Shown here: one piece after another, positions 19,309 to 25,639 of the stretch
Numbering within the stretch: the first letter of the stretch is position 1
Layout of the letters: every line of letters starts with the position of its first letter
Source: Clostridiales bacterium
GTDB taxonomy: Bacteria; Bacillota; Clostridia; Christensenellales; DTU072
Assembly: GCA_012520515.1 (NCBI GenBank)
Contig: JAAYOD010000009.1
Coordinates: 1 to 34,169 of the forward strand
Length of the DNA: 34,169 nt
Reading direction: 5' to 3'
The notes under the pieces: model-generated
Told to the model about the DNA's origin: nothing
What the model saw: only the letters and a program-made list of their open reading frames with translations
Database searches by the model: none
Position numbers and translations under genes: made by a program

Positions 19309-20577
19309 TTAGGCGTTTTGACTAACTTTTGTCTTTACTCTGCCTAGATTAATGTTGTCTTTGGAGCGGTTTTGCAATTCTTTACGCGGATTGGGACTTT
19401 CTTCAAACCTATAATCAATGCTGTATTCTTTGATATGCTTATCTATTACTTGGTGAGAGGGATTGTCTTTTGGCTCACGATTAATTATACCTTGATACTT
19501 AAAGAAAGTGGCATTTGGCTCTAAGTCATTAACATCAGAGTATGTTTCTTGCTTGCCAGTTAGCGTTACTGTTTCTTTTAGCACTTCTCTAATATAAGTT
19601 TTTTGCGGACCAAAGCTTATAAGCTGTGGAAATTCGCCAATGGGAATAACTTGTTGCCAGTCTTTGTGTTCATACTTTTTAAGAAGTTCAGCAGCTTTAT
19701 GCAAATGCGCAATCTCTTGCATAAGCATCTCTTCCCAAATGGCTTTTACTTTGGGGTGTGTTTCGTCCTTGTAGCAAGAGTAGTACAAATAGCATTCGGT
19801 GTATTCGTGGCAAAGCAAGTTTTCTAGCCAAGTTGCGTTTACATCCATTAGACTGCCGTACAAGGTGACATGCTCTTCTTCTATCATGCCTATCTCTTGA
19901 TAAATACGCCTGCCAAGCTCTGAAGTGTAAAAACCGTTTTGGTTCATATAATAGTTCATTGTTTGCTGTTCTGCCGCAGTAATTATAGATATGCCAAGTC
20001 TAGTAAGCGCGTCAGCTGTCTTGTTGTCTATTGGTCGCTTGACATCGTCAACAGGGTGTCTGTGTTCGCTTATGGTAGGACGGCCTGGGAAAATTTCTGT
20101 ATAAGAGCCAACTAAGCGTTCAGCGTATACGCTATAATCCATCTCTAGCAAGTTTGAAAAACGATATAGGTGGTCAAAATCTTCAAGAAGCGCAAAGTCA
20201 TAAGCCGCCTTTACATAAAGGTCTTTCTCTCTTTGTGCTAAAATAGCCGTTAGGTCAACGGCAAGCTGTTCATAAGCTATGGTGTTTTCTAGTATTGTTT
20301 CATTGATGGGCTTGATGCAAGATATACGCTTTTGCTGTTGTTGCTCTACCCGTCTTACGCTGGCAAGCTCACGCCTTATATCGTTGTTGTTGCAGTTGCG
20401 GTAAAATTGATGATTAAACCACACCGCTTCATACTCTGTGCCGTTCATAAGGATAGTTCGGACTTTGGTATAGGGGTCTACATCGTATTTATCGTAAGAC
20501 ACAGGGTAAAGTTTGGACCAATCCAAAAAAGTGTTATCCAAATTTACTGGTTTTTCATTAAATGGGTTAAAACTCAT
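19309..20577 (-). CDS. Uncharacterised ferritin-like di-iron protein
   Basis: This 422-residue soluble protein matches no family I can name. Residues 195-302 have the spacing of a ferritin-like four-helix di-iron site: Glu203, E233-x-x-H236, Glu258 (or Glu261) and E288-x-x-H291. A second, degenerate set lies N-terminal (Glu103, D133-x-x-H136), so two such bundles may exist. The first 90 residues and the C-terminal 110 residues are polar, with no motif I recognise. There is no signal peptide, membrane helix or rubredoxin domain. The start is the ATG at 20577, with AAAGGAG upstream; an ATG 75 bases further upstream has no ribosome site. It is divergent from mnmA. Manganese catalase, rubrerythrin-like peroxidase or iron-binding roles are all possible. 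Confidence 0.7.
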   Translation of the reverse strand: MSFNPFNEKPVNLDNTFLDWSKLYPVSYDKYDVDPYTKVRTILMNGTEYEAVWFNHQFYRNCNNNDIRRELASVRRVEQQQQKRISCIKPINETILENTIAYEQLAVDLTAILAQREKDLYVKAAYDFALLEDFDHLYRFSNLLEMDYSVYAERLVGSYTEIFPGRPTISEHRHPVDDVKRPIDNKTADALTRLGISIITAAEQQTMNYYMNQNGFYTSELGRRIYQEIGMIEEEHVTLYGSLMDVNATWLENLLCHEYTECYLYYSCYKDETHPKVKAIWEEMLMQEIAHLHKAAELLKKYEHKDWQQVIPIGEFPQLISFGPQKTYIREVLKETVTLTGKQETYSDVNDLEPNATFFKYQGIINREPKDNPSHQVIDKHIKEYSIDYRFEESPNPRKELQNRSKDNINLGRVKTKVSQNA

Positions 20578-20657
20578 AAATATCTCCTTTAATAATAATT
20601 TAAGATTATTATTTGCATTTGGCGGTAACAATATACATTTATTAGCACTCAATAAAT

Positions 20658-21794: not shown

Positions 21795-21871
21795 GTACCG
21801 GTAGCTCAGTTGGATAGAGCACTAGCCTCCGACGCTAGAAGTCGTTGGTTCGACTCCAATCCGGTACACCA
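21795..21871 (+). tRNA. tRNA-Arg(CCG), CCA encoded
   Basis: A 77-base cloverleaf: acceptor GTACCGG / CCGGTAC, D arm with GCTCAGTTGG, anticodon stem CTAGC / GCTAG with loop CTCCGAC (anticodon CCG), T arm with GGTTCGACTCC, discriminator A and an encoded CCA. It reads the CGG arginine codon. It lies 12 bases after mnmA with no separate promoter visible. Confidence 0.95.
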
Positions 21872-21955: not shown

Positions 21956-21972
21956 CTGTGACTTTATCACAG
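21956..21972. promoter_or_regulatory. Crp-type operator CTGTGACTTTATCACAG upstream of the sulfur oxidoreductase gene
   Basis: This palindrome has TGTGA and TCACA half-sites with a 5-base spacer. Its centre (21964) is 42 bases before the start predicted from TACAAT (21994-21999), the position of class II Crp/Fnr activation. The -35 region is non-consensus, as expected for an activator-dependent promoter. A near copy lies upstream of trxA. Confidence 0.65.
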
Positions 21973-22033
21973 AATATTGGCATAGGTTTTAGTTACAATA
22001 ATAGTATATGATTATTATAGGAGAGTATTTGTT

Positions 22034-24496
22034 ATGAAGATTGTTATAGTGGGAGGAGTAGCTGGCGGAGCTACGGCAGCGTCAAGGCTAAGAAGAATTT
22101 CAGAAAAATATGAGATTGTGCTAATAGAAAGAGATAGCTATATCTCTTATGCCAATTGCGGTTTGCCATATTATATTGGCGGAACGATAAAGGAAAGAGA
22201 AAAGTTGTTTGTGCAAACGGTGGAGGGGCTAAAAAGCCGTTTTAATATCGATGTCAGGGTAAACAATGAAGTTGTGAGCATAGATAAAGATAATAAGCAA
22301 GTAACTGTTAAAAACACCATAACAGGTGACATCTATAAAGAAAGCTATGACAAACTAATACTTTCTTTAGGCGCAAAGCCCATTGTGCCAAAAATAAAGG
22401 GGCTAGATAGCGCAGACAATATTTTTTGGCTTAGAAATATCCCAGATACCTTTAAGATTAAAGATTTTGTTGATAAAAATAAACCAAAGACAGCCGTTGT
22501 TGTAGGGGGCGGATTTATTGGCGTTGAGATGGCGGAAAATTTAGCTGAACTTGGCATAGATGTTACGCTGGTGGAAAAATCCGACCAAACGCTTAGACAG
22601 TTTGATTTTGAAATGGCGCAGCTTGTCCATCAAGAACTAAATGATAACGGTGTTAGAGTTATACTATATGACGGCGTAAGTGAATTTTTAGATGGCGGGA
22701 AAAAGATAAAATTAGATAGCCAAACGGAAATTGAGTCTGATATAACTATTTTAAGTATAGGCATAGCGGCAGAAAGCGCTTTAGCTAAAAACGCTGGCTT
22801 AAAGCTTGGCGAAAAAGGTCATGTTATAGTGGACGAAAGGTATAATACGCTTTTAGCTGACGGTAAAGTAAGCAATGATATTTACGCTGTTGGCGATATG
22901 ATAGAGGTAATAAACGGACTTGATGATACCTTATATTCTGTGCCGCTTGCATGGGGCGCAAATAGGCAAGGAAGGCTTGTTGCTGACGCTATTGCAAACT
23001 TAACTACGCCTAAACAAAAGATTTTTGGCAGTAGCGTGCTTAAGGTATTTAGCCTTACCGCAGCTTCGGTAGGAGCAAATGAAAGGACGCTTAAAGATAA
23101 AGGCATAGCTTATACATCTATCCATGCCCACCGCGGCAACCATGCAAGCTACTATCCAAACTCTGTAAACATTGCGCTTAAACTTATCTTTGATAAGACA
23201 AGCGGCAAGATATACGGCGCGCAAGCAGTTGGCGGACAGGGCACAGAAAAAAGAATAGATGTCATTGGCACAGTTATTCAACTGGGCGGTACAATTAATG
23301 ACCTAGCAGGCCTAGAGCTTTGCTATGCCCCCCCTTATTCATCGGCAAAAGACCCTGTAAACATCTTGGGGTATATAGCGGAAAATGTGGCAAATGATGT
23401 CTATAAAGTAGTCTATCATTACCAAATTGATAAACTGGCGCAAACAGAGCTTGTCATTGATGTAAGGTCAAAGTTTGAATACCAGCAAGGGCATATTGAA
23501 AACGCAATAAATCTTGATATAGATGAAATTAGACAAAACCTAGATAAGTTGCCTAAAGATAAAGATACGCCCATTTATTTATATTGTAGGGTAGGCTTGC
23601 GCGGATATTTGGCTATAAATATTTTGCGTGACGCAGGGTACACCAATCTCTATAATTTGTCGGGCGGATACCTAACTTATAGAGCGTATAAGTATAAACC
23701 TAGCGTAAGAAAAGTAAAAAGCAAAAAAAGTTTTATGGAGGCAAATGATATGGAGCAAGGCAATAAAGAAGGCGATAAAATTAGAGAAATAGACGCAAGC
23801 GGTTTGCAATGCCCAGGTCCGCTTATGGCAGTTTATCAAGAAATTTGTAAAATGGAAGAGGGGGAAAAGCTAAAAGTTACAGCTAGTGATAGCGGATTTA
23901 GTAGCGATATAGAAAATTGGTGCAAAACAAATGGCCACACCTTAGATGAGCTTATAGTTGCAAAAGGAAAATTTATAGCCACCATAACAAAAGGCGAAAA
24001 AAAAGAAGTTAGTTTAGACTCAAGTCAAAAAAATGCCACTATCGTTGTGTTTAGCGGAGAGCTTGATAAAGTTATTGCCGCTATGATAATTGCGCAAGGT
24101 GCGGCGGCGCAAGGCAAAGATGTCACTATGTTCTTTACATTCTGGGGACTAAACGCTTTAAGAAAAGAGCAAAAAGTCAAGGTTAAAAAACCTATGATGG
24201 AAAAGATGTTTGGCAAGATGATGCCAAAAGGCGCGGAAAACTTACCGCTGTCTAATATGAATATGCTAGGACTTGGCCAAAAAATGATAAAGGGCATTAT
24301 GGCAAAGAAAAATGTAGATTCTGTAACCGAAATGATTAAGAAAGCGCAAGAGTCAGGCGTAAAGATGCTAGCTTGCTCTATGAGTATGGACCTTATGGGA
24401 CTTACTAAAGAAGAGCTTATAGACAACCTTGAGTATGTAGGGGTAGCAACCTATATTGCAAAGAATGAAAATGTAGGCACAACATTGTTTATATAA
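22034..24496 (+). CDS. Four-domain sulfur/thiol oxidoreductase: CoA-disulfide reductase-like, rhodanese, TusA and DsrE-like
   Basis: This 820-residue fusion contains four domains. Residues 1-450 are an FAD/NAD(P)H pyridine nucleotide-disulfide oxidoreductase of the CoA-disulfide-reductase/Npsr type, with GGVAGG (7-12), single active Cys42 (ANCGLPY) and YAPPYSSAKDPVN at 431-443. Residues 470-550 are a rhodanese with Cys518 (YCRVGLRGY). Residues 583-653 are a TusA domain with Cys593 (LQCPGPL). Residues 667-820 are a DsrE-like domain with Cys781 (LACSMSMDLMG). All four sulfur-relay cysteines are present. The likely role is reduction of CoA-persulfide or polysulfide, with sulfane sulfur passed down the chain. 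AGGAGAG precedes the ATG. It is preceded by a Crp-type operator and followed by a terminator and a Crp/Fnr gene. Confidence 0.92.
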   Translation: MKIVIVGGVAGGATAASRLRRISEKYEIVLIERDSYISYANCGLPYYIGGTIKEREKLFVQTVEGLKSRFNIDVRVNNEVVSIDKDNKQVTVKNTITGDIYKESYDKLILSLGAKPIVPKIKGLDSADNIFWLRNIPDTFKIKDFVDKNKPKTAVVVGGGFIGVEMAENLAELGIDVTLVEKSDQTLRQFDFEMAQLVHQELNDNGVRVILYDGVSEFLDGGKKIKLDSQTEIESDITILSIGIAAESALAKNAGLKLGEKGHVIVDERYNTLLADGKVSNDIYAVGDMIEVINGLDDTLYSVPLAWGANRQGRLVADAIANLTTPKQKIFGSSVLKVFSLTAASVGANERTLKDKGIAYTSIHAHRGNHASYYPNSVNIALKLIFDKTSGKIYGAQAVGGQGTEKRIDVIGTVIQLGGTINDLAGLELCYAPPYSSAKDPVNILGYIAENVANDVYKVVYHYQIDKLAQTELVIDVRSKFEYQQGHIENAINLDIDEIRQNLDKLPKDKDTPIYLYCRVGLRGYLAINILRDAGYTNLYNLSGGYLTYRAYKYKPSVRKVKSKKSFMEANDMEQGNKEGDKIREIDASGLQCPGPLMAVYQEICKMEEGEKLKVTASDSGFSSDIENWCKTNGHTLDELIVAKGKFIATITKGEKKEVSLDSSQKNATIVVFSGELDKVIAAMIIAQGAAAQGKDVTMFFTFWGLNALRKEQKVKVKKPMMEKMFGKMMPKGAENLPLSNMNMLGLGQKMIKGIMAKKNVDSVTEMIKKAQESGVKMLACSMSMDLMGLTKEELIDNLEYVGVATYIAKNENVGTTLFI

Positions 24497-24516
24497 AGCT
24501 TATTATAGTTTAGAAT

Positions 24517-24555
24517 AAAAAAGGATTGGAAAAAACTTTATCCAATCCTTTTTTT
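24517..24555 (+). terminator. Terminator after the sulfur oxidoreductase gene
   Basis: AAGGATTGGA pairs with TCCAATCCTT around a 10-base loop, with flanking A and T runs. Confidence 0.85.
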
Positions 24556-24599
24556 ATGGTAGTATATCTAAAAAGGGGATACCGTAAAGGAGAATAAGT

Positions 24600-25256
24600 A
24601 TGTTTGACGCTAAAGAAATACCGTTTTATAACCATTTGACACAAGGAGAAATTGAGCTATTAAAGTCTGGATTATACCAAAAAAAGTTTGTTAAAGGACA
24701 GCTTGCGCACAGCTCTACAGAGCCTTGTCTTGGCGTAATTATTGTAAGAAAAGGCAAGCTAAGAGCATACCTAATTTCTGACCAAGGCAAAGAGATTACT
24801 TTGTATTACTTATCTAGCGGCGACACTTGCGTGTTGTCGGCTTCTTGCATACTTGACAGTATCTCTTTTGAAGTATTGGTGGAAGCTGTGGAAGATACAG
24901 AAGTTATGCAAATTACGGCATCTTGTTTTAATCAAGTTATGAAAACTAATGTTATGGTGGAAAATTTTGCGCTAAAACTTGCAGCTGAAAAGTTTTCTGA
25001 TGTTATGTGGGTTATGCAGCAAATATTGTTTTTTAGTATGGATAAGCGCCTTGCTATGTACTTATATCAAGAGATGATAGATACAAAAAGCGCTACACTT
25101 TATATTACACACGAAAATATAGCAAAAAGTCTGGGCACAGCTAGAGAAGTTGTGACCAGACTTTTAAGGCAGTTTGCGCAGGATGAAGTAGTGGAAGTGA
25201 CTCGAGGAAAAGTAACTGTAATTGACCGCAACAAACTGCAAGCTATGTTCAATTAG
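24600..25256 (+). CDS. Crp/Fnr-family transcriptional regulator
   Basis: This 218-residue regulator has an N-terminal cyclic-nucleotide-type beta-roll (about 10-115), a dimer helix and a C-terminal winged helix. The recognition helix T180-A-R-E-V-V-T-R187 carries R182-E183-x3-R187, the same spacing as the Crp residues that contact TGTGA, and unlike the Fnr E-x2-S-R pattern. The sensor roll has Cys43, Cys77, Cys83 and Cys109; C77 and C83 lie in GDTCVLSASC. There is no N-terminal iron-sulfur cluster motif like that of Fnr and no conserved cAMP-phosphate Arg-Ser pair, so a thiol- or persulfide-based signal is plausible. AAAGGAG precedes the ATG; no TGTGA site or clear promoter is seen upstream. 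Its stop codon overlaps that of trxA on the other strand. Confidence 0.9.
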   Translation: MFDAKEIPFYNHLTQGEIELLKSGLYQKKFVKGQLAHSSTEPCLGVIIVRKGKLRAYLISDQGKEITLYYLSSGDTCVLSASCILDSISFEVLVEAVEDTEVMQITASCFNQVMKTNVMVENFALKLAAEKFSDVMWVMQQILFFSMDKRLAMYLYQEMIDTKSATLYITHENIAKSLGTAREVVTRLLRQFAQDEVVEVTRGKVTVIDRNKLQAMFN

Positions 25257-25561
25257 GCAAGCAGGTTTTTAAGCTGCTCTATGGTATGGTAGCCTACGGC
25301 TTTTTTATGCATTTGCCCGTTTTTAAATACAATTAAGGTAGGAATGCTGCTTACAGCGTAAGTATTTGCTAACCTTGCTTGCTCATCTACATTGACTTTG
25401 CCAACAGTAACCTCAGGCATTTGGCGGGCTAGGTCATCAAGGACAGGCGCTATCATTTTGCAAGGTCCGCACCAGTCGGCATAAAAGTCTACTAGTACTG
25501 TTTTATTGCTTAAGGTAACTTCCTTTTCAAAATTTTCACTTGTTAGCTTTATTGGTTTCAT
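25253..25561 (-). CDS. trxA: Thioredoxin
   Basis: This 102-residue thioredoxin has the WCGPC active site at about residues 30-34, the conserved buried Asp (LVDFYADW) and the cis-proline in SIPTLIVF. It reduces protein disulfides and, in relatives, persulfides. AAGGAG precedes the ATG. It is convergent with the Crp/Fnr gene; the two stop codons overlap by 3 of 4 bases with no terminator between them. Its promoter has the same type of palindrome as the sulfur oxidoreductase gene, which points to shared control. No thioredoxin reductase is in the window; the FAD protein at 22034 might connect to it, but that is speculation. Confidence 0.95.
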   Translation of the reverse strand: MKPIKLTSENFEKEVTLSNKTVLVDFYADWCGPCKMIAPVLDDLARQMPEVTVGKVNVDEQARLANTYAVSSIPTLIVFKNGQMHKKAVGYHTIEQLKNLLA

Positions 25562-25590
25562 TTTATATTCTCCTTTTATTTTGTGTTTCT

Positions 25591-25610
25591 AATTACAGTA
25601 TACGGTAATT
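25591..25610 (-). promoter_or_regulatory. trxA -10 region inside a 20-bp imperfect palindrome
   Basis: The minus-strand -10 TATACT (25597-25602) sits at the centre of AATTACAGTATACGGTAATT, palindromic except for one base pair. The predicted start is near 25590. No good -35 is seen; the Crp-type palindrome occupies its place. Confidence 0.55.
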
Positions 25611-25622
25611 TTATTATTATTT

Positions 25623-25639
25623 CTGTGACAAAGTCACAT
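25623..25639. promoter_or_regulatory. Crp-type operator CTGTGACAAAGTCACAT upstream of trxA
   Basis: It has TGTGA and TCACA half-sites with a 5-base spacer (CAAAG), and the core is a perfect 15-bp palindrome. Its centre (25631) is 41 bases before the predicted trxA start, matching the geometry at 21956-21972. Confidence 0.65.

Follow-up and report, generated by a model that had tools for sequence, protein, structure and literature searches.

A probable Crp/Fnr-superfamily regulator with conserved cysteines and predicted 15-base operators at thioredoxin and CoA-disulfide reductase-like genes of a Clostridiales bacterium

Among the described systems closest to the locus considered here, CRP binds cAMP through a phosphate-binding cassette, GEL...RSA, and its class II promoters have the site centered near −41, FNR carries N-terminal cysteines for a 4Fe-4S cluster, and CooA holds heme through Cys75, His77, and an N-terminal Pro. 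Sulfane-sulfur sensors such as CstR, BigR, and FisR are also known. For HcpR of Desulfovibrio, the accessible part of the report gives the motif wTGTGAnnnnnnTCACAw (PMC1274295). According to the accessible parts of two further papers, PgRsp of Porphyromonas gingivalis is a redox-related Crp/Fnr protein outside the known families, which was modeled on the structure 3DV8, binds heme, and alters oxidative-stress genes when lost (PMC6955866), and CrpPg of the same species is a Crp homologue without cAMP binding, in the absence of which trxA mRNA falls strongly (PMC12040651). Here we describe a stretch of 34,169 nucleotides from a Clostridiales bacterium (contig JAAYOD010000009.1 of assembly GCA_012520515.1; hereafter the window), in which the gene of a Crp/Fnr-superfamily regulator is flanked by trxA and by a fusion gene for a flavoprotein resembling CoA-disulfide reductase (CDR), with the palindrome TGTGA-N5-TCACA (the N5 site) upstream of each flanking gene. 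We consider it probable that the regulator is an operator-binding activator of trxA and the fusion gene; it may respond to thiols or persulfides.

The regulator gene (24600 to 25256, plus strand) encodes 218 amino acids, in which cNMP_binding (PF00027, 40.8 bits; cut-off 27.5) and HTH_Crp_2 (PF13545, 56.1 bits; cut-off 27) score over their Pfam cut-offs, placing the protein in the Crp/Fnr superfamily. The fusion gene (22034 to 24496, plus strand) encodes 820 amino acids that combine the CDR-like flavoprotein with rhodanese, TusA, and DsrE-like domains, with Pfam matches above cut-off; its top NCBIfam models, CoA-disulfide reductase (469.7 bits; cut-off 578.8) and DsrE2 (84.9 bits; cut-off 210), both remain below theirs. 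trxA (25253 to 25561, minus strand), encoding a thioredoxin of 102 amino acids (TIGR01068, 122.1 bits; cut-off 96.8), lies tail-to-tail with the regulator gene with a 4-base overlap. Predicted operator 1, TGTGACTTTATCACA (21957 to 21971, center 21964), is located 5′ of the fusion gene and predicted operator 2, TGTGACAAAGTCACA (25624 to 25638, center 25631), 5′ of trxA, both being exact and intergenic. An earlier reading of the window from its letters alone (the sequence-only reading) had singled out these two palindromes, and they proved to be the only exact matches in the 1.56-Mb assembly, which is 92.67% complete; the reversed pattern, taken as a control, has three exact matches in the same assembly. 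Assuming uniform placement, two exact sites would fall no more than 3.7 kb apart with a probability of about 0.005, a figure that does not count the position of the sites at flanking promoters. When up to two mismatches were allowed, the window gave 10 matches against 9.6 expected and the whole genome, searched with TGTGACNNNGTCACA, gave 35 against 38, which is background; only the exact pair is therefore informative. Because, in addition, all 13 sites examined among the 33 that remain besides the two operators lie inside reading frames, we rejected a wider regulon for this genome and name no further target in it. Autoregulation in the window was also rejected, as no site with at most two mismatches is found directly upstream of the regulator gene; in two relatives (L045 and L046), CGTGATAAAATCACA stands directly upstream of it.

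The regulator was detected in 22 of the 40 genomes searched of the window's family and, at E 1e-30, in 66 of the 297 genomes of its order; none was found in the viral contigs searched. Our main ranking rests on 80 named loci, the best of at least 589 confirmed loci, which were selected by protein similarity alone and come from mostly clostridial records, among them Faecalibacterium, Roseburia, Anaerocolumna, and Sedimentibacter. When every 5-base half-site with spacers of 0 to 10 bases was ranked near the regulator without an assumed motif, TGTGA-N5-TCACA came first, being present within 3.5 kb of the regulator in 30 of the 80 loci. The runner-up, GTGAC-N3-GTCAC (21 of 80), is the same motif, and the best unrelated families are A/T runs (14). 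Half-sites of A and T only had first been left out, and their inclusion in a repeated ranking did not change the order in the named set. With intergenic DNA only, for which eight loci without a labeled regulator frame were scanned whole, the N5 site was found in 24 of the 80 loci and the next unrelated palindrome in 7. At 4.5 to 8 kb from the regulator, where 66 of the 80 loci have DNA, it was found in 2. The claim of the sequence-only reading that the spacer is of 5 rather than 6 bases holds in the named loci (30/80 versus 3/80 for TGTGA-N6-TCACA), and on the same counts the N6 spacing of CRP was rejected as the general form, although it is real near trxA in two relatives (L037 and L039). A second set of 37 loci yielded 14 exact N5 sites, but this set is not independent, because 13 of its 20 order loci (L199-L211) had been fetched for a strict site already seen near the regulator; these account for 13 of the sites, leaving 1 in the other 24 loci, and it is owing to this selection that the main ranking rests on the named set. 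Order-wide, 32 of the 66 genomes that have the regulator contain the strict motif, versus 35 of the 231 that lack it (p = 7.6e-8), and the reversed pattern, its control, is found in 6 of 297. One regulator-free genome (G142, at E 1e-30) has five strict sites, and another Crp-type protein may use the motif in such genomes.

The genes that carry the site point to thioredoxin above all. In the named loci we looked for N5 sites, with at most one mismatch, in the 350 bases 5′ of each trxA gene that had upstream DNA of sufficient length, and long frames more than 5 kb away served as control genes. A site precedes 39 of 50 linked trxA genes versus 4 of 296 control genes (p = 7e-37). In the window's order, where trxA matches came from 225 genomes and CDR matches from 39, we took the 30 top-ranked loci of each gene, less one trxA locus whose upstream DNA was too short; the site was found at 11 of 13 linked trxA genes versus 2 of 16 in regulator-free genomes (Fisher p = 1.5e-4); G230, one of these two regulator-free genomes, may hold a more distant regulator. 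CDR genes have a site of their own in 4 of 17 cases in the named loci and, in the order, in 5 of 22 when the genome has the regulator and in 0 of 8 when it does not. A scan of genomes with orthologues of the regulator for palindromes near both genes, as the sequence-only reading had advised, thus came out strongly for trxA and more weakly for CDR genes. Pooled totals reach 58 of 81 for trxA and 9 of 30 for CDR genes, inflated by the site-selected loci L199-L211; with those loci and the window excluded, they are 49 of 71 (40/51, 6/14, and 3/6) and 6 of 25 (4/17, 2/5, and 0/3), respectively. Some CDR genes, as in G192, follow trxA directly in the same orientation and may share its promoter. In G304 (L199), which was site-selected for the second set but entered the order comparison by its trxA rank, the fusion gene and trxA are divergent and two exact palindromes lie between them.

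Other genes with an upstream site encode a 4Fe-4S ferredoxin together with a Fer4_5 membrane protein and a CcdA-thioredoxin, the latter being among the apparent targets with a −10 box at +28 or +29 from the site center, and sites with one mismatch precede genes for a ferritin and a C_GCAxxG/sulfite-reductase-like protein. On contigs without the regulator, strict sites with a −10 box at +29 are found at thioredoxin reductase-like, CDR, and C_GCAxxG-like genes, which were named by eye. Judging from such sites, thioredoxin reductase, CcdA-thioredoxin, ferredoxin, and C_GCAxxG proteins are likely further targets elsewhere. The regulon nevertheless looks small, because eight whole genomes chosen from the loci with sites contain 2 to 4 strict sites each (0 to 2 for the reversed pattern). 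In the 4.3-Mb genome of Konateibacter massiliensis (L116), all three strict sites (15214, 15800, and 18349) are no farther than about 8 kb from the regulator, one 5′ of a CcdA-thioredoxin gene, one without an assigned gene, and one 5′ of a rhodanese gene.

The spacing between site and promoter is also conserved. We scanned for hexamers sharing 5 or 6 letters with TATAAT, with no orientation assumed, no site-selected loci, and no tie rule, and around 71 intergenic N5 sites (142 orientations) they accumulate at +28 (13), +29 (43), and +30 (6) from the site center, with at most 8 at any other offset. The best box of trxA is at +28 to +30 in 50 of 58 cases with site-selected loci included and ties broken toward +29; with those loci and the window excluded, it is there in 43 of 49 with ties broken toward +29 and in 37 of 49 with ties broken away from it. 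Because the boxes of relatives peak at these offsets, TACAAT (21994 to 21999, plus strand; +30 from the center of operator 1) was chosen as the probable −10 box of the fusion gene and TATACT (25597 to 25602, minus strand; +29 from that of operator 2) as the probable −10 box of trxA. By letters, TACAAT ties at 5/6 with AATAAT (+33), TATGAT (+43), and TATTAT (+49), and TATACT with TGTAAT (+34). Since a −10 box that starts at −12 and lies about +29 from the site places the center at about −41, the window sites are centered at about −42 (fusion gene) and −41 (trxA), in agreement with the distance of 41 to 42 bases from the predicted starts that had been proposed for both. The alternative −10 boxes that the sequence-only reading had allowed for the first promoter, TAGTAT (+38) and TATGAT (+43), fall outside the peak of the relatives. 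Its description of the −35 boxes as poor agrees with the hexamers found by eye 17 bases upstream of the −10 boxes, AGAATA and CAGAAA, and the consensus at the −35 position of trxA in relatives is CAGAaa rather than TTGACA. The predicted promoters therefore look like class II CRP-type promoters, with a center near −41, a −10 box, and a weak −35 element, and this predicted geometry favors a class II activator.

The regulator itself differs from the CRP, FNR, and hcp-linked types. It scores far below the NCBIfam cut-offs of CRP, FNR, NtcA, and FtrB; the bit scores are 39.4 against 266 for the CRP model NF008732 and 35 against 228 for the FNR model. No Cys precedes residue 43, so that the N-terminal cluster cysteines of FNR have no counterpart. 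In a pairwise alignment with CRP, the stretch at the cAMP cassette has no Arg-Ser and reads CVLSASCILDSISFEV, and C77 and C83 occupy the position of the cassette. The codons of this C77-VLSAS-C83 motif are at 24828 to 24848 and that of Cys43, within CxG, at 24726 to 24728, both on the plus strand. Each of the two motif cysteines is found in 120 of 121 relatives, and Cys43, invariant in the 13 sequences of A1, is also found in 120 of 121, the remaining one lacking coverage there. All three occur jointly in 119 of the 121 relatives matched (123 loci were given), as would be expected of a thiol or persulfide sensor, which needs a conserved cysteine pair or trio. The recognition helix, R182-E183-V-V-T-R187 (25143 to 25160, plus strand), aligns with RETVGR of E. 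coli CRP, so that R182, E183, and R187 are, as had been suggested, the residues of CRP type that would read TGTGA. The peptide patterns that retrieved the named loci include R-E-V-x-x-R, and its conservation there is built in; the cysteines lie outside the patterns. In a 28-row tree, the subgroup and CooA are separated (98/94) from CRP, FNR, six proteins neighboring hcp, and two Crp/Fnr-like proteins of the same genome, with the caveat that CRP, FNR, and CooA form long branches. This separation accords with the earlier proposal of a class distinct from Crp, Fnr, and HcpR. Identity with HcpR, which clusters with hcp, was rejected because the tree sets the regulator apart from the hcp-neighbor proteins and because hcp is on contig 23 of the window's genome, and the regulator on contig 43. 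On contig 23 (47968-49581; L223), a weak Crp-type helix-turn-helix match is found about 0.5 kb from the hybrid cluster protein gene, and a separate regulator of hcp may exist in this genome.

Several observations weigh against this interpretation. The sequence-only reading would have the palindromes recur in related genomes, and this is true of the named loci, but in the window's own family all 17 unselected loci lack an exact N5 site; one-mismatch sites are seen there at 6 of 14 linked trxA genes, and two loci (L035 and L041) have one at trxA and at the fusion gene alike. Of the named relatives, L053 is the most similar (57% identity), and its contig, on which the fusion-gene promoter is cut off, bears no N5 site even with two mismatches allowed; two relatives of the same genus (L033 and L034, 50% identity) have none with up to one mismatch in a stretch without a linked trxA or fusion gene. 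In one genus of the family, L037 (7311 and 7335) and L039 (5050 and 5082) have TGTGA-N6-TCACA sites in pairs at trxA and not N5 ones; regulator and spacer may have changed together there. In the named loci, the 350 bases searched contain no N5 site for 11 of the 50 linked trxA genes and for 13 of the 17 CDR genes. Order-wide, 34 of 66 regulator genomes are without the strict motif, and the 35 regulator-free genomes mentioned above have it. As for the promoters, boxes also accumulate, though less, at +28 to +30 around the 27 in-frame sites (3, 7, and 1 of 54 orientations), perhaps because mechanical frames cover promoters, and breaking ties against +29 shifts the trxA boxes away in the window and in some relatives.

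The mechanism that would account for the whole is as follows. The product of the gene at 24600-25256 would be a Crp/Fnr-type activator of a distinct subgroup present in many Clostridia, the dimer of which would bind the 15-base palindrome TGTGAC-N3-GTCACA, with GA and TC five bases apart and the axis on a base. Bound at about −41 of both flanking promoters, those of the fusion gene and trxA, it would substitute for the missing −35 element, as at class II CRP promoters, and so turn on a thioredoxin and persulfide/CoA-disulfide reductase system. Going beyond what was observed directly, namely the sites with their conservation, spacing, and linkage to the regulator, the promoter geometry, and the cysteines, we infer with good support that the regulator protein would be what binds the sites and that its effect would be activation rather than repression. 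As the cAMP cassette appears to be replaced by a C-x-L-S-A-x-C motif with a third conserved cysteine elsewhere, the input is likely to be the thiol state of the cell, candidate chemistries being disulfide formation or persulfidation by sulfane sulfur. CoA-disulfide reductase-rhodanese enzymes are NADH-dependent persulfide or polysulfide reductases, and by analogy with this chemistry the targets would reduce sulfane sulfur as well as disulfides. Given these targets and the conserved cysteine trio, our best guess is some form of thiol or persulfide signal, to which we give even weight for and against. Rather more tentative is the specific proposal that the subgroup is a direct sensor of sulfane sulfur or disulfide stress, by way of the C-x5-C motif in the former cAMP pocket and the third cysteine, and runs a local thiol-repair circuit in anaerobes from its odd-centered 15-base operator.

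Another possibility, which we regard as unlikely but deserving of attention, keeps the same regulator and operators and makes the input heme, NO, CO, or an Fe-S cluster, with the cysteines binding metal or heme as in CooA-like proteins. CooA is the best solved relative of the profile after 3DV8 and is joined with the subgroup in the tree, though over long branches, and PgRsp, as far as the accessible text of its report goes, binds heme and changes oxidative-stress genes although modeled on 3DV8 (PMC6955866), which counts against a thiol signal. In the profile alignment, however, C77 falls on Phe74 and C83 on Cys80 of CooA, and the columns of its heme ligands Cys75 and His77 are not kept in the regulator; in addition, hcp is on another contig, and the named targets serve thiol reduction or electron transfer, not the handling of NO or CO. 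It is improbable that the palindromes are repressor operators, of this regulator or another, released by stress. A site over the −35 region could also block the polymerase, and several sulfane-sulfur sensors are repressors in the part of the literature consulted, but the fixed distance to a −10 box without a −35 consensus is needed by an activator and not by a repressor. We give very little weight to the idea that the sites belong to another Crp-family protein and that the neighboring regulator is incidental: the window's genome does have two other Crp-type helix-turn-helix matches over cut-off and a weak one, and the motif occurs in regulator-free genomes far more often than its reversed form (35/231 versus 6/297), but in the named loci the sites are concentrated at distances of up to 3.5 kb from the regulator and not farther away, and trxA in regulator-free genomes is mostly without one. 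Chance palindromes without function, to which the background level of two-mismatch matches in window and genome would be congenial, are practically dismissed by the exact pair, the linkage to the regulator, and the conservation in relatives.

If activation by a thiol- or persulfide-responsive regulator is true, a thiol- or sulfur-sensing class would be added to the Crp/Fnr superfamily, and the Crp/Fnr fold would be seen to recognize a palindrome of 15 bases, with one base less between the half-sites than in that of CRP. The locus would form a small circuit with one regulator, one operator, few targets, and a cysteine motif where CRP binds cAMP. In anaerobes, thioredoxin serves as a central reductant; records of Faecalibacterium and Roseburia carry the regulator. 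A search of open-access titles, in which the slash form "Crp/Fnr" is unsearchable and whose scope leaves out subscription papers and RegPrecise, showed no description of the regulator class or its motif among the matches listed and, within the same limits, no account of joint clostridial control of thioredoxin and persulfide reduction. As for the surroundings, a tRNA-Arg (CCG) gene (21795-21871) lies about 85 bases 5′ of operator 1 and bounds the operator-promoter region, and a minus-strand frame of 447 amino acids (19309-20652; 422 searched) has no Pfam match at 0.001.

Compared with known systems, the regulator has its closest solved relative in 3DV8, a Crp/Fnr-family protein of Eubacterium rectale, which belongs to the same subgroup (1.7e-91 to the family profile) and itself has the cysteines, in DCTG and CLLSASC, and a REVITR helix. 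3DV8 is known as a structure, and the sole paper found to name it is that on PgRsp, in which, as far as its text is accessible, it serves as a modeling template (PMC6955866). The accessible text of that paper does not contain the words "consensus" and "palindrome"; PgRsp is likened to our regulator by description rather than by sequence, and it differs in coming from another phylum and in binding heme. CrpPg, also set beside the regulator by description, differs in being described as a global regulator, and is compared in the accessible text with SdrP/DdrI-type proteins (PMC12040651). E. coli CRP resembles the regulator in fold, TGTGA half-site, and R-E-x3-R helix, while the regulator differs in its apparently few targets, in aligning without a cAMP cassette, and in a spacer of 5 instead of 6, the window sites being N5 and the N6 form of CRP being seen in two family relatives. 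HcpR is similar in the TGTGA half-site, the anaerobic hosts, and the stress genes, but it has a spacer of 6 and is linked to hcp, and the regulator stands on a branch separate from the six hcp-neighbor proteins. CooA of Rhodospirillum rubrum is the nearest characterized group by profile score and tree, with a cysteine aligned at Cys80, and it differs in that its heme ligands are not kept in the regulator and that the named targets include no CO genes. The cysteine control of sulfur-handling genes proposed here is shared with the sulfane-sulfur sensors SqrR, OxyR, PerR, MarR, and AdpA and with CstR, BigR, and FisR, all of which belong to other protein families; no Crp/Fnr protein is among the 20 matches listed of 78. 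New subgroups of Crp/Fnr proteins are still being named, RedB and PgRsp being examples in the accessible parts of their reports (PMC9603854, PMC6955866).

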